Position numbers and translations under genes: made by a program. From positions 404,706 to 468,705 of the forward strand of contig JAXHMJ010000002.1 in the NCBI GenBank assembly GCA_034521575.1: a DNA stretch of 64,000 nucleotides, in the 5' to 3' direction. The notes below the pieces were generated by a model, which was not told where the DNA came from, ran no database searches, and saw only the letters and a list, made by a program, of their open reading frames with translations. Of the stretch, positions 20,338 to 63,717 are shown in pieces. Positions within the stretch are counted from its first letter, which is position 1. Every line of letters begins with the position of its first letter. This stretch comes from a candidate division KSB1 bacterium. Its GTDB lineage: Bacteria; Zhuqueibacterota; Zhuqueibacteria; Residuimicrobiales; Krinioviventaceae.

Positions 20338-20502
20338 AGAAACGTTCAGAACAGGGACTGATCAAAGCCGCATGCATTCCATTTTGACAGATCCTGCGGA
20401 CAAAGCCGTTGCTGTTCAGTTTGCTATTTGGCTGGCTGTCGGTGATTTTACTCTGGATTTTCTGACAGAAGACCGTTTGGATCCCAATCAAAGTAACTAT
20501 AA

Positions 20503-22217
20503 CCTAAACTGAGCGATTCTTCGAAAAATAAAAAACCTTTTGGGATTATAATGGATTGTTATTATTTTAATTAAGACAAAATCAACTAAAATCAATCCAC
20601 GCACCCAAAAGGTGACAATAATATGAAGAAAAAAACCAATTCAAAGCAAGTAAAAATTTCAAAAATCGAGGTCACAACTGAAAAAATGAGCGGGCGCGGC
20701 GGCCTGTTTTTCTTTATCAAATATGTCGAAAACATTGGTTTTTTCAAGCTTTTCGAACAATGTCTTGGTTCTCTAAAAGGTTCGGCCAAGGGCATTAGTT
20801 GCTTTCAGTTTATTAAACAAGTTGTGGGCTGGTTCATTGATGGCACCGACCGTTCCATGTTAGGCTTTGATCGACGTAAAAACGACGACGCTTATGCCGC
20901 GCTCCTAGAGAATGAGCCTTGGCACATGGCGACATCGCATCAGATAAAGATAATGTTTCGCCGACTTGGTTTTGTCGGACAATGGCTCTTTCGTTCTATT
21001 TTGCTCAAGCTTTTTATCTGGCGCCTTCATGTTGAAAAGCCCAAAGTGATCATATTATTCGCTGATACGGTGGTCTTTGACAATGACGATGCCCAAAAAC
21101 GTCAAGGCGTTAAGCCAACTTATAAGAAGAAAAGGGCTTTCAGCCGCTGCAAATCAGCTGGGGGCCTTATGTGGTGGATGCATTGTTCCGTCCTGGCAAT
21201 GTGCACTGCAATCATGGGACAGATTTGAGAAAAGCTGTTGGACGTTTGGTCAAAGCGATTCGAACCCATTATGCTGATGTGCCAATCATACTGCTTAAAG
21301 ACAGCGGTTTTTTAGATGATAAGAATTTCAGATTTTTTGAAGAACGCCTCGGCATTCATTATGCGTGCAGCGGAAAGCTCTATAAGGGTATTAAACAATA
21401 TGTTAAAGAAGTTCCTGTTGATCGATTTCACTTGTATCAAATGTCGTGGTCGTTTGTTGAATTTGGTAACCGGCTTGACACGTGGTCTACATTTCGGCGA
21501 TGCATTTTCACATCACAAGAAACCGAAGATAATGGCCAGATGACCTTTGATTTTGCTCGACCGGACAATGTGATTTATACAAACATTGGCCAGAATGAAG
21601 AATGTGATGAAAAGCTGGTGCAGGCAGTTGGCGATGACTATTTAAAGGCGGAAAAGATCATTGAATTGGATCATAGTCGCGGCAAGGGTGAACTTGTTCA
21701 TCGTTCACAAAAGGATTTTGTCGTATGCGAGCAGCTTCCCTTTAAAGGCTTTGGAATGAACAGAGCCTTTTATTACATTTTTTTGATGAGTCATTTTCTA
21801 TACGAAGCTTTCAAGCGTGATATGACCCAGGATGTGTTACCGGTTACGAGCTATCCCAGCACTTTTCGCCGGACTGTAATTGATTTTGCTGTCAAGATAA
21901 TATCGACGAGTCAACAGGTAATCTTGAAAGTCACCCAAGCTACTTATGATGCATTAAAAATTCCACTTTTATGGCAGGCGATTCGCGAACAAAAACCAGC
22001 TTTCATGACATAGAGCAAAATGTTTCCAGAAAATTTTATTTCACAGGATTGATACGCCCTAATGTTAGTTTTTTCATGTTTTTAGGCATAGTTCATTTTA
22101 AAAACAGGTAAAAAGACTTTTGTAACATGAAAACAGAATAGAATTTACACAATAGACATGACTGGCTCCCTTTTGAGCCAGTTTATTTTGTTCTGTTTTA
22201 AAATCGCTCAATTTAGG
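20503..22217 (+). mobile_element. IS1380-like insertion sequence, copy 1
   Basis: 1,715 bp bounded by imperfect terminal inverted repeats CCTAAACTGAGCGATT (left) and AATCGCTCAATTTAGG (right), 15 of 16 matching. A 5-bp target duplication TATAA flanks it at 20498-20502 and 22218-22222. It holds one transposase split in two frames. A nearly identical copy lies at 60001-61717 with a different target duplication, so both are products of recent transposition. Confidence 0.92.
20623..22013 (+). pseudogene. IS1380-like DDE transposase (frameshifted)
   Basis: The first frame (ATG 20623, stop at 21228) gives the N-terminus (SGRGGLFFFIKYVENIGFF, then LFADTVVFDND with a probable catalytic Asp). The second frame carries the rest (SWGPYVVDALFRPGN, DVPIILLKDSGFLDDKNF, FARPDNVIYTNIG) and ends at 22013. 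One missing A in the run at about 21132-21135 (AAGAAGAAAAGGGC) would restore the family-like sequence KKKKGFQPLQ. The sequence does not form a good slippery heptamer, so programmed -1 shifting is less likely than a real or artefactual deletion. Confidence 0.85.
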
Positions 22218-22533
22218 TATAACCAAAAATGGACGGATATTCAGACCGCGAAATCAATCTATTCAGGCTTACCGGATACCTATGATTATTCACCGCTTTT
22301 GACTTTGGGCAAGCAACCGGAGGGTGTGCTGTATTTGCAGGACAATGATGTCTGTGATCTGACTGCAACATTAACTCAGTTTGGAAATCCGTTGCCGGGC
22401 ATTGATGTCAATTTATCCATGGCTGATACCGAATTGGGGCCAAGCGCGAATGCTGTTCTCTGGGAAAATATGTCGCCGGCAGGGGCAATGAAAACCTTTC
22501 AGCAAATTGAGCTTCTTTCTCATCATAAATCGG

Positions 22534-59919: not shown

Positions 59920-60000
59920 AATTCACAAGATTTTTAAAATTTATTAGTACCAAATTTTATAATCTGGTATATAATATTTATGTATACATACTTATTAATA

Positions 60001-61717
60001 CCTAAACTGAGCGATTCTTCGAAAAATAAAAAACCTTTTGGGATTATAATGGATTGTTATTATTTTAATTAAGACAAAATCAACTAAAATCAATCCACGC
60101 ACCCAAAAGGTGACAATAATATGAAGAAAAAAACCAATTCAAAGCAAGTAAAAATTTCAAAAATCGAGGTCACAACTGAAAAAATGAGCGGGCGCGGCGG
60201 CCTGTTTTTCTTTATCAAATATGTCGAAAACATTGGTTTTTTCAAGCTTTTCGAACAATGTCTTGGTTCTCTAAAAGGTTCGGCCAAGGGCATTAGTTGC
60301 TTTCAGTTTATTAAACAAGTTGTGGGCTGGTTCATTGATGGCACCGACCGTTCCATGTTAGGCTTTGATCGACGTAAAAACGACGACGCTTATGCCGCGC
60401 TCCTAGAGAATGAGCCTTGGCACATGGCGACATCGCATCAGATAAAGAGAATGTTTCGCCGACTTGGTTTTGTCGGACAATGGCTCTTTCGTTCTATTTT
60501 GCTCAAGCTTTTTATCTGGCGCCTTCATGTTGAAAAGCCCAAAGTGATCATATTATTCGCTGATACGGTGGTCTTTGACAATGACGATGCCCAAAAACGT
60601 CAAGGCGTTAAGCCAACTTATAAGAAGAAAAGGGCTTTCAGCCGCTGCAAATCAGCTGGGGGCCTTATGTGGTGGATGCATTGTTCCGTCCTGGCAATGT
60701 GCACTGCAATCATGGGACAGATTTGAGAAAAGCTGTTGGACGTTTGGTCAAAGCGATTCGAACCCATTATGCTGATGTGCCAATCATACTGCTTAAAGAC
60801 AGCGGTTTTTTAGATGATAAGAATTTCAGATTTTTTGAAGAACGCCTCGGCATTCATTATGCGTGCAGCGGAAAGCTCTATAAGGGTATTAAACAATATG
60901 TTAAAGAAGTTCCTGTTGATCGATTTCACTTGTATCAAATGTCGTGGTCGTTTGTTGAATTTGGTAACCGGCTTGACACGTGGTCTACATTTCGGCGATG
61001 CATTTTCACATCACAAGAAACCGAAGATAATGGCCAGATGACCTTTGATTTTGCTCGACCGGACAATGTGATTTATACAAACATTGGCCAGAATAAAGAA
61101 TGTGATGAAAAGCTGGTGCAGGCAGTTGGCGATGACTATTTAAAGGCGGAAAAGATCATTGAATTGGATCATAGTCGCGGCAAGGGTGAACTTGTTCATC
61201 GTTCACAAAAGGATTTTGTCGTATGCGAGCAGCTTCCCTTTAAAGGCTTTGGAATGAACAGAGCCTTTTATTACATTTTTTTGATGAGTCATTTTCTATA
61301 CGAAGCTTTCAAGCGTGATATGACCCAGGATGTGTTACCGGTTACGAGCTATCCCAGCACTTTTCGCCGGACTGTAATTGATTTTGCTGTCAAGATAATA
61401 TCGACGAGTCAACAGGTAATCTCTGAAAGTCACCCAAGCTACTTATGATGCATTAAAAATTCCACTTTTATGGCAGGCGATTCGCGAACAAAAACCAGCT
61501 TTCATGACATAGAGCAAAATGTTTCCAGAAAATTTTATTTCACAGGATTGATACGCCCTAATGTTAGTTTTTTCATGTTTTTAGGCATAGTTCATTTTAA
61601 AAACAGGTAAAAAGACTTTTGTAACATGAAAACAGAATAGAATTTACACAAATAGACATGACTGGCTCCCTTTTGAGCCAGTTTATTTTGTTCTGTTTTA
61701 AAATCGCTCAATTTAGG
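60001..61717 (+). mobile_element. IS1380-like insertion sequence, copy 2
   Basis: 1,717 bp, almost identical to 20503-22217, with the same terminal inverted repeats. The target duplication is TAATA (59996-60000 and 61718-61722). Differences from copy 1 include ATAAAGAGAATG for ATAAAGATAATG near 60445, AATAAAGAA for AATGAAGAA near 61095, one extra C near 61424 and one extra A near 61650. Confidence 0.92.
60121..61512 (+). pseudogene. IS1380-like transposase, copy 2 (two frameshifts)
   Basis: Carries the same missing A as copy 1 (at about 60630), so the N-terminal frame ends at 60726 and the main frame continues from there. A second shift, one extra base in AATCTCTGAAAG near 61424, ends the main frame at 61448. 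Copy 1 reads through this point to the equivalent of 61512 (VTQATYDALKIPLLWQAIRE). As read, this copy could not make the C-terminus even if the first shift were bypassed. Confidence 0.85.
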
Positions 61718-61768
61718 TAATAATAAAGAGATTATTATAAAATCATAAACATTGTTCATGAAAAAAAA

Positions 61769-62020
61769 CTATTTCGTCTGTACACTCTGTTCATACACAT
61801 ATTCAGGATCCAGTTCCACACCGTTATCCCATTCTATGGCATCAAAAGACATGTGAACGGTTACAAAGAGATTTTTATCCTTTAATTTTATGAATTTCCC
61901 CTTTTGCAAATCGGGTAAAACGTTGAAAACCTTTTTCTCTCCATTTTCAAAGGTTAACAGTATTTCATATTCCTTTAGATATCTTGCAGATTGAATACCG
62001 ATATACAGTTGTATCTCCAG
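61769..62020 (-). pseudogene. DUF2442-domain protein, copy 1
   Basis: The minus-strand frame from 62020 to TAG (61769-61771) reads IGIQSARYLKEYEILLTFEN, GEKKVFNVLPDLQKGKFIKL and FDAIEWDNGVELDPEYVYEQ, the DUF2442 pattern (D-x-I-x-W-x-N-G-x-D-L-x-P-E). No ATG, GTG or TTG stands at the right place; the codon after the upstream stop is CTG, so the start is lost or unusual. DUF2442 genes often pair with DUF4160 genes in TA-like modules, as here. Confidence 0.6.
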
Positions 62021-62283
62021 TCATCTCAATGGATCAATTTGAAATTGTGTTTCTCCGTTTTGGGCTAAATTCCAATTTGCAAGCAGTTCATCTTTATGGA
62101 GTTCAGCCCAGGCTTCGACCAATTTTCGTTTATTTAAAGGAAATTCTCCTTCCAGTCATTCACCTTGATTAATATCAAATGTTGATACTCCTGATAGTAG
62201 GCATGAAAATGTGGCGGATTGTGTTCAATTTTTCCGGTATACAATCTGATAATTATGCCGTAAAACATACTAATCGTGGGCAT
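62021..62283 (-). pseudogene. DUF4160-domain protein, broken
   Basis: Minus-strand ATG at 62283: MPTISMFYGIIIRLYTGKIE, HNPPHFHAYYQEY, the DUF4160 start with the HNPPHFH motif. The frame is lost near 62190, an in-frame TGA follows, and the C-terminal part EFPLNKRKLVEAWAELHKDE, LLANWNLAQNGE is read in another frame to 62021. It directly precedes the DUF2442 remnant, the usual order for this pair. Confidence 0.7.
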
Positions 62284-62349: not shown

Positions 62350-63014
62350 TCAAGTATAAAAGCCATCATCCTGCCAGTTCAACGGATTGTTTCTAATGTA
62401 ATCCGAAATTCTTTCAAAAGCCTGATCATTGCGAATAATGTGATCATAAAACCGCGACTGCCAGGTGAAATCAAATCCCAGACGATGAGCATGCCGGGTG
62501 ACCGCGGATTTATATGACCGTATGAGGGTGGAAACAGATCCCGATTTGGGTGAAATATCCGACATGAATTTGTTTTTGTCCGGGGGTGGGGTGGATGGAT
62601 GGCCGGTTGATATATTACCTATGGGCGCGTTCCCCGTAGGCGCGTTCCCCGTAGGCGCGTTGCATGCAACGCGCCTACGGGGAACGGGATTACCACCATG
62701 GTCCGGATGTTTGCCGGCCTTATTGCAATTAACCCCATTCACATCATTCAATATCAAAATCCCATGTACATGATTGGGCATGACCACAAATGCACCCAGA
62801 TCCACGCATGGTTTGCATGATTTTTAATCTCATACCACAAAATATCGGCAATCACACCGATTTTGGACAATTGCATGGACTGGTTTACAACCGTACCGAA
62901 ATAGTGTTCTCTGTTATGTGTACAGATGGTGATAAAATAGGCAGCATTCCATCGGTAATCCCAGTTTTTCAATCGGAGTGAACCGGAACGATGTCCGGTT
63001 TTGTGAGTTTTCAT
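62350..63014 (-). pseudogene. REP-associated tyrosine transposase (TnpA_REP/RAYT), one frameshift
   Basis: Minus strand: 63014-62754 reads SLRLKNWDYRWNAAYFITIC, THNREHYFG and ILWYEIKNHA. A one-base shift near 62795 leads to VVMPNHVHGILIL (HUH motif as HVH), then, after a repeat-encoded linker, SVSTLIRSYKSAVTRHAHRL and the RAYT tail FTWQSRFYDHIIRNDQAFER, ISDYIRNNPLNW. The Y1 tyrosine is likely in RSYKSAV or SRFYDH. The linker RRRVACNAPTGNAPTGNAPI comes from a palindromic repeat in the gene. RAYTs act on REP palindromes by single-strand cleavage and are usually single-copy. Confidence 0.85.
62643..62686. repeat. 44-bp perfect palindrome inside the RAYT gene
   Basis: Each 22-bp half is CGTTCCCCGTAGGCGCGTTG plus CA; the halves meet at TGCATGCA with no loop. 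Two further copies of the half-unit GGCGCGTTCCCCGTA precede it (62624-62655). In the gene it encodes the N-A-P-T-G repeat linker. Confidence 0.92.
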
Positions 63015-63157: not shown

Positions 63158-63427
63158 CTAATACCGGTTCGCTGCAGGATTCACCGGCACACTCTGTTCA
63201 TACACATATTCAGGATGTAGTTCCACACCGTTATCCCATTCTATGGCATCAAAAGACATGTGAACGGTTACAAAGAGATTTTTATCCTTTAATTTTATGA
63301 ATTTCCCCTTTTGCAAATCGGGTCAAACGTTGAAAACCTTTTTCTCTCCATTTTCAAAGGTTAACAGTATTTCATATTCCTTTAGATATCTTACAGATTG
63401 AATACCGATATACAGTTGTATCTCCAG
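63158..63427 (-). pseudogene. DUF2442-domain protein, copy 2 (fused end)
   Basis: A second copy of the 61.8-kb DUF2442 sequence, about 240 bp with a handful of changes. At its 3' end the normal QTK-stop is replaced by PVNPAANRY before TAG (63158-63160). Upstream the DUF4160 partner is absent. The two copies flank the RAYT gene as direct repeats. Confidence 0.55.
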
Positions 63428-63717
63428 TCATGCCAATGCAACATTAATCAATTATCTAAACAAAATCAAGAAGAAAAAGTATCGGCCTGCCTGGTTACTT
63501 GTGAATCGTGGACAAGTTGCAAAGAAGGTTTCTGAAATAAAGCTATAATTTGTATAAAATTAATTTATTATAATACGGTAAGACAGTACGTACTACAGTA
63601 TGTACTGTTATTATAAAACGATAATGGCATCAATATAAACCGATAGAGATGAGGCTACAGCCGGTGCGGCAAAACGGATTTCCCCCCAAAGTGAAAATTA
63701 CCTCGATACAGCCTGCC
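63428..63717. other. Intergenic region with operator-like dyad
   Basis: No supported gene, though a short frame ending at 63549 (YRPAWLLVNRGQVAKKVSEI) could be the tail of a lost gene. ACAGTACGTACT (63583-63594) and AGTATGTACTGT (63597-63608) form a dyad with 11 of 12 matches and a 2-bp gap, a typical size for a dimeric regulator. AT-rich sequence lies just before it. Confidence 0.4.

Follow-up and report, generated by a model that had tools for sequence, protein, structure and literature searches.

Does a RAYT (REP-associated tyrosine transposase) gene that contains a REP-like palindrome within its own reading frame constitute a working pair of enzyme and substrate, or is the palindrome an insertion that the gene merely tolerated? 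This question is raised by a minus-strand gene in the window, i.e., the whole 64,000-nucleotide stretch of DNA analysed here. The preliminary description of this locus recognised a perfect 44-bp palindrome within the coding frame of a RAYT gene, accompanied by two half-units, and proposed that the gene carries its own substrate in an expendable linker. The gene itself, the rest of the host genome and a set of related transposases were examined, and the features on which the answer depends are collected in Table 1.

Table 1. Features of the RAYT gene and its internal palindrome, in window coordinates
Feature	Position	Strand	Basis
RAYT open reading frame, HUH-to-C-terminus part, 151 aa, palindrome at about residues 40-55	62350..62805	minus	
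RAYT N-terminal part, other frame	62754..63014	minus	aligned by eye with relatives' N-termini
HUH motif H-V-H (PNHVHG)	62764..62772	minus	sequence
WQ motif (start of WQSRFYDH)	62458..62463	minus	sequence
YIRNNP with presumed catalytic tyrosine, aligning with YIYINP of E. coli TnpA-REP	62383..62400	minus	
Perfect 44-bp palindrome CGTTCCCC-GTAGGCGCGTTGCATGCAACGCGCCTAC-GGGGAACG	62643..62686	none	
28-bp double-foot REP unit GTAG...CTAC, core CGTTGCATGCAACG, single copy in genome	62651..62678	none	
Direct half-unit GTAGGCGCGTTCCCC, 15 bp, 5 codons	62636..62650	none	
Degenerate half-unit ATGGGCGCGTTCCCC, near copy of GTAGGCGCGTTCCCC, 15 bp	62621..62635	none	

A frameshifted gene with a single-copy palindrome

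The palindrome, centred on TGCATGCA, consists of a 28-bp unit that opens with the GT[AG]G foot of the GTAG REP family (GTAG at 62651, CTAC at 62675-62678) and is extended by the complementary arms CGTTCCCC and GGGGAACG; both half-units precede it. It lies far beyond chance, as no unit matches occurred in shuffled windows, and the folding z-scores of the palindrome strand against shuffles were -7.6 and -6.3 for DNA and -5.6 for RNA. On the minus strand, the region is translated as ...PVPRRRVACNAPTGNAPTGNAPIGN..., between PNHVHG and WQSRFYDH/YIRNNP, and the half-units read as NAPTG repeats, in agreement with the earlier account of their position and translation. The frame is unbroken through the palindrome, and the break in the gene is located elsewhere. 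The N-terminal part (MKTHKTGHRSGSLRLKNWDYRWNAAYFITICT...NHAN) is separated from the remainder by a single frameshift just before the HUH motif, within about 62754-62815, which the preliminary description overlooked. Because of this frameshift, the gene is probably a dead pseudogene, the alternative being a sequencing or assembly error at the break.

The identification of the gene as a RAYT relative is borne out by NCBIfam REP_Tyr_transpos, which matches the C-terminal part with an E value of 7e-14 (under the curated cut-off), and by the predicted structure of a close relative with the same palindrome core (L113), whose best fold match is 4er8, the complex of E. coli TnpA-REP with a REP hairpin and the only solved relative by sequence. 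Pfam searches with either half of the gene gave no match, and a search of plasmids returned a single short match, to a Spirosoma transposase. In the L113 model, most blocks of the protein core have pLDDT values above 90, while values fall below 50 over residues 94-116, where the palindrome-encoded VGTLHATSLR is located. The linker is thus predicted to be a disordered segment that departs from the catalytic core.

According to Quentin et al. (2018, PMC6006769), TnpA-REP subclass 2.4, which contains RAYT group 4 (Bertels et al., 2017) and is here taken as its equivalent, is characterized by NH[IFV]H, WQ and YIxNNP motifs and a variable HuH-Y insertion, and it alone has in-frame REPs inside the gene, generally between HuH and Y, including double-foot REPs ending in GT[AG]G and C[TC]AC. 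The window gene contains PNHVHG, WQSRFYDH and YIRNNP, a linker of about 100 aa at the position of the variable insertion, and an in-frame double-foot GTAG...CTAC REP, and its host falls among the taxonomic homes of the subclass (Bacteroidetes, Cyanobacteria and scattered phyla). These motifs, together with similarity to relatives that share them, suggest that it belongs to subclass 2.4, i.e., RAYT group 4. Since all the published points on the subclass fit the window gene, and the idea of a RAYT with its own REP inside has already been published for the class (PMC6006769), it is a decayed further case of a known class. It differs from the published members in that it is frameshifted (unless this reflects a sequencing error), lacks flanking REPs, contains a REP found only once in the genome, and has GGCGC in the lower stem after GTA instead of the usual AGAC or GGGC. 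The GTAG REPs and REPtrons of Di Nocera et al. (2013, PMC3733652) share the GTAG foot, a palindrome of 20-40 bp and the association with a tyrosine transposase, and intragenic GTAG-tagged REPs are also on record there; however, these elements occur in high copy number and are mostly extragenic, in contrast to the one intragenic copy of the window. The E. coli TnpA-REP cleaves single-stranded REP sequence adjoining the hairpin, guided by GTAG (4er8; PMC8266576), and the fold family and this mode of hairpin recognition would be shared by the window gene. Nevertheless, the E. coli enzyme belongs to group 2, lacks an internal REP and requires a bulge in the stem, whereas in the window family the linker is long and the stem perfect.

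Members of the GTAG REP family are typically found in many copies. In the 5.26-Mb host genome, however, no other copy of the palindrome was detected with up to 3 mismatches, no further copy with a variable-gap pattern, and none of the 14-bp core CGTTGCATGCAACG; REP-type palindromes flanking the gene were likewise absent. This is the outcome that the preliminary description had itself named first as speaking against its proposal. As the unit occurs once in the genome, its mobility cannot be shown. A search of the host genome for GTAG[AG]G[AG]C palindromes gave one match. The genome also encodes an intact RAYT paralogue (L043 1974-2666, on contig 5), 44% identical over the C-terminal open reading frame, whose linker contains an internal GTAG palindrome of this type, GTAGAGACAAGGCAATGCCTTGTCTCTAC, as well as an (NND)n repeat; a related core, CAAGGCATGCCTTG, is present at the 5' end of this paralogue and at no other site in the genome.

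Cognate palindromes in the linkers of relatives

Of 119 related genomes, 57 contained relatives of the C-terminal open reading frame. A further 80 loci came from scanning named genomes, mostly from Bacteroidota but also from Cyanobacteria, Chloroflexota, Kapaibacteria and Patescibacteria. Their HuH-Y linkers vary widely in length. A palindrome (score 11 or more) was found between HUH and WQ in 68 of 109 distinct related genes compared with 2 of 545 codon-shuffled linkers, a fraction that may be biased upward because the queries themselves have palindromic linkers; about four in ten relatives have no detectable linker palindrome. Linkers contain 2.64 palindromes per kb, as opposed to 0.18 for the N-terminal part and 0.08 for the C-terminal part. 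Of the 71 linker palindromes, 52 open with the GT[AG]G foot. In five loci (L123, L118, L153, L158 and L034), a GTAG palindrome lies near the 5' end of the open reading frame or in its N-terminal part, and some units may therefore be translated outside the linker. Tallies of additional half-units among the relatives are left aside here, because they registered direct copies alone and overlooked those of the window gene.

Internal palindromes resemble those that flank the same gene: the mean identity was 0.77 at the same locus and 0.53 when loci were permuted, with 0 of 500 permutations as high. In most relatives with an internal unit, no flanking palindrome was found by the criterion used, indicating that flanking copies are not obligatory. 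In full listings from 18 genomes, which comprise 98 GTAG palindromes, 41 lie no more than 600 bp from a RAYT match, compared with 0.4 expected under uniform placement. Like palindromes lie within the transposase gene and on both its upstream and downstream sides in L033, L015, L031 and L042, being identical in L033 and alike or identical in L015. The comparison with other RAYT linkers that had been suggested for this locus thus revealed that relatives have different GTAG palindromes at this position, which in many cases are identical to their flanking REPs. Together with the predicted disorder of the linker, this upholds for the class the proposal of a RAYT that carries its own substrate in an expendable linker. 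The proposal finds no support in the window gene itself, where a working gene-element pair is unlikely given the lack of other copies, the lack of a flanking REP and the broken frame.

A conserved DNA unit in two reading frames

A clear GTAG foot is present in 54 internal units; 39 of these start in codon phase 0, 15 in phase 1, and none in the third phase, in which the TAG of GTAG would be read as a stop. In L015, L097 and L113, translation of the core GTTGCATGCAAC gives LHAT; L029, L092, L159 and the window gene share this core but translate it as VACN. In a protein tree built without linkers, pairs of genes with the same core were closer than in all permutations (0 of 2000). In the first such tree, the window gene appeared beside relatives with an identical core, a placement that was dropped because linker residues of short-linker genes may have been retained; stricter trimming changed its exact neighbours, with weak support, and only the overall correlation between core and tree is claimed here. 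The match to flanking units, the match to the tree, the absence of units from the stop phase and the occurrence of one unit in two frames indicate, from sequence comparison, that the conserved entity is the DNA unit and not the peptide. The linker could conversely be regarded as a low-complexity peptide repeat with the DNA palindrome as its by-product, as the NAPTG repeats of the window half-units and the VAPT, GAET and NND repeats in linkers of other relatives might suggest. Such an explanation is contradicted by the one DNA core that gives unrelated peptides in two frames and by the likeness of internal units to non-coding flanking units, and it sits poorly with the near absence of palindromes from codon-shuffled linkers; it is highly improbable.

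That one unit occurs in two phases suggests insertion on several independent occasions, although a phase could also be shifted by indels. The two-frame core, the stop-phase avoidance and the statistics relating core, flanks and tree do not appear in the main texts of the works cited here, and the supplement of PMC6006769 may hold some of them; they extend the published view that RAYTs coevolve with their cognate REPs.

Origin and fate of the internal REP

The most plausible interpretation (probability about 0.88) is that the window contains a decayed subclass 2.4 RAYT gene whose REP arrived by an insertion linked to the transposase and was accommodated by a disordered linker. A double-foot REP with a GTAG...CTAC hairpin would have been inserted between the HUH motif and the WQ/tyrosine region, where the linker is unconstrained. 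The agent was most likely the group 4 transposase itself, acting on nearby single-stranded DNA and inserting the element into its own gene. Slippage could then have multiplied half-units in five-codon steps. Such an insertion would be tolerated with the frame intact, given the disorder of the linker and the fact that a GTAG palindrome can be read through in two of its three frames; only insertions in the linker and in an open phase would survive. The protein was presumably active at one time and the internal copy neutral. A later frameshift just before the HUH motif would have disabled the gene, with flanking REPs either lost or never present, leaving the internal copy as the last in the genome.

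It has also to be considered whether the internal REP is selected as a cis-acting part, either as a substrate or seed copy that travels with the gene or as an mRNA hairpin or autogenous binding site that tunes expression. This is rather unlikely, even though several observations are in its favour: palindromes are far commoner in linkers than in the rest of the gene, cores differ among clades while both arms remain complementary, the DNA unit and not the peptide is conserved, and the predicted mRNA hairpin is strong (-50.7 kcal/mol for 79 nt). Nevertheless, local insertion followed by tolerance gives the same pattern, many relatives have no linker palindrome, the HuH-Y region is an extension at the periphery with little effect in the model of Quentin et al. 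(PMC6006769), and the window unit resides in a broken gene. A more specific proposal, that the internal REP of group 4 is a maintained seed copy, with the transposase preferring its own gene and the linker unit being replaced whenever the cognate REP changes, is equally doubtful; if it were true, gene and substrate would renew each other. Alternatively, the window gene might still be whole and functional, in which case the frameshift would be either a sequencing error or a site of recoding. The conservation of the HUH, WQ and YIRNNP motifs, the open C-terminal frame through the whole insertion and the presence of only one break between the two parts give this some weight, yet no canonical slippery heptamer was seen by eye at the junction, the lack of a flanking REP and of any other genomic copy is as for a dead element, and decayed mobile elements lie nearby, so that an intact gene has only a modest chance of being the correct reading.

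Under the preferred interpretation of insertion and tolerance, the window case is a relic, whereas the class to which it belongs is of some interest, because an internal REP can document, within the gene itself, the REP recognised by the RAYT in question. Since the internal core matches both the flanking REPs and the transposase tree, internal units could be used to predict the substrate specificity of group 4 RAYTs, for which the main texts of the cited papers report no biochemistry (PMC6006769, PMC3733652, PMC8266576).

Decayed mobile elements are found around the window RAYT gene. On either side of the RAYT region lies a 250-bp direct repeat (61782-62031 and 63189-63438; 97.6% identical), which on the minus strand forms part of a small protein (LYIGIQSARYLKEYEILLTFENGEKKVFNV...) that presumably resembles DUF2442. 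An IS1380-family element is present in two copies (20502-22219 and 59999-61719) that are 99.8% identical. Each has its transposase divided between two overlapping frames, with the split at an identical position, and the copy at 59999-61719 has an extra break near the transposase C-terminus. The common split suggests either that the element was copied after decay or that its transposase is recoded.
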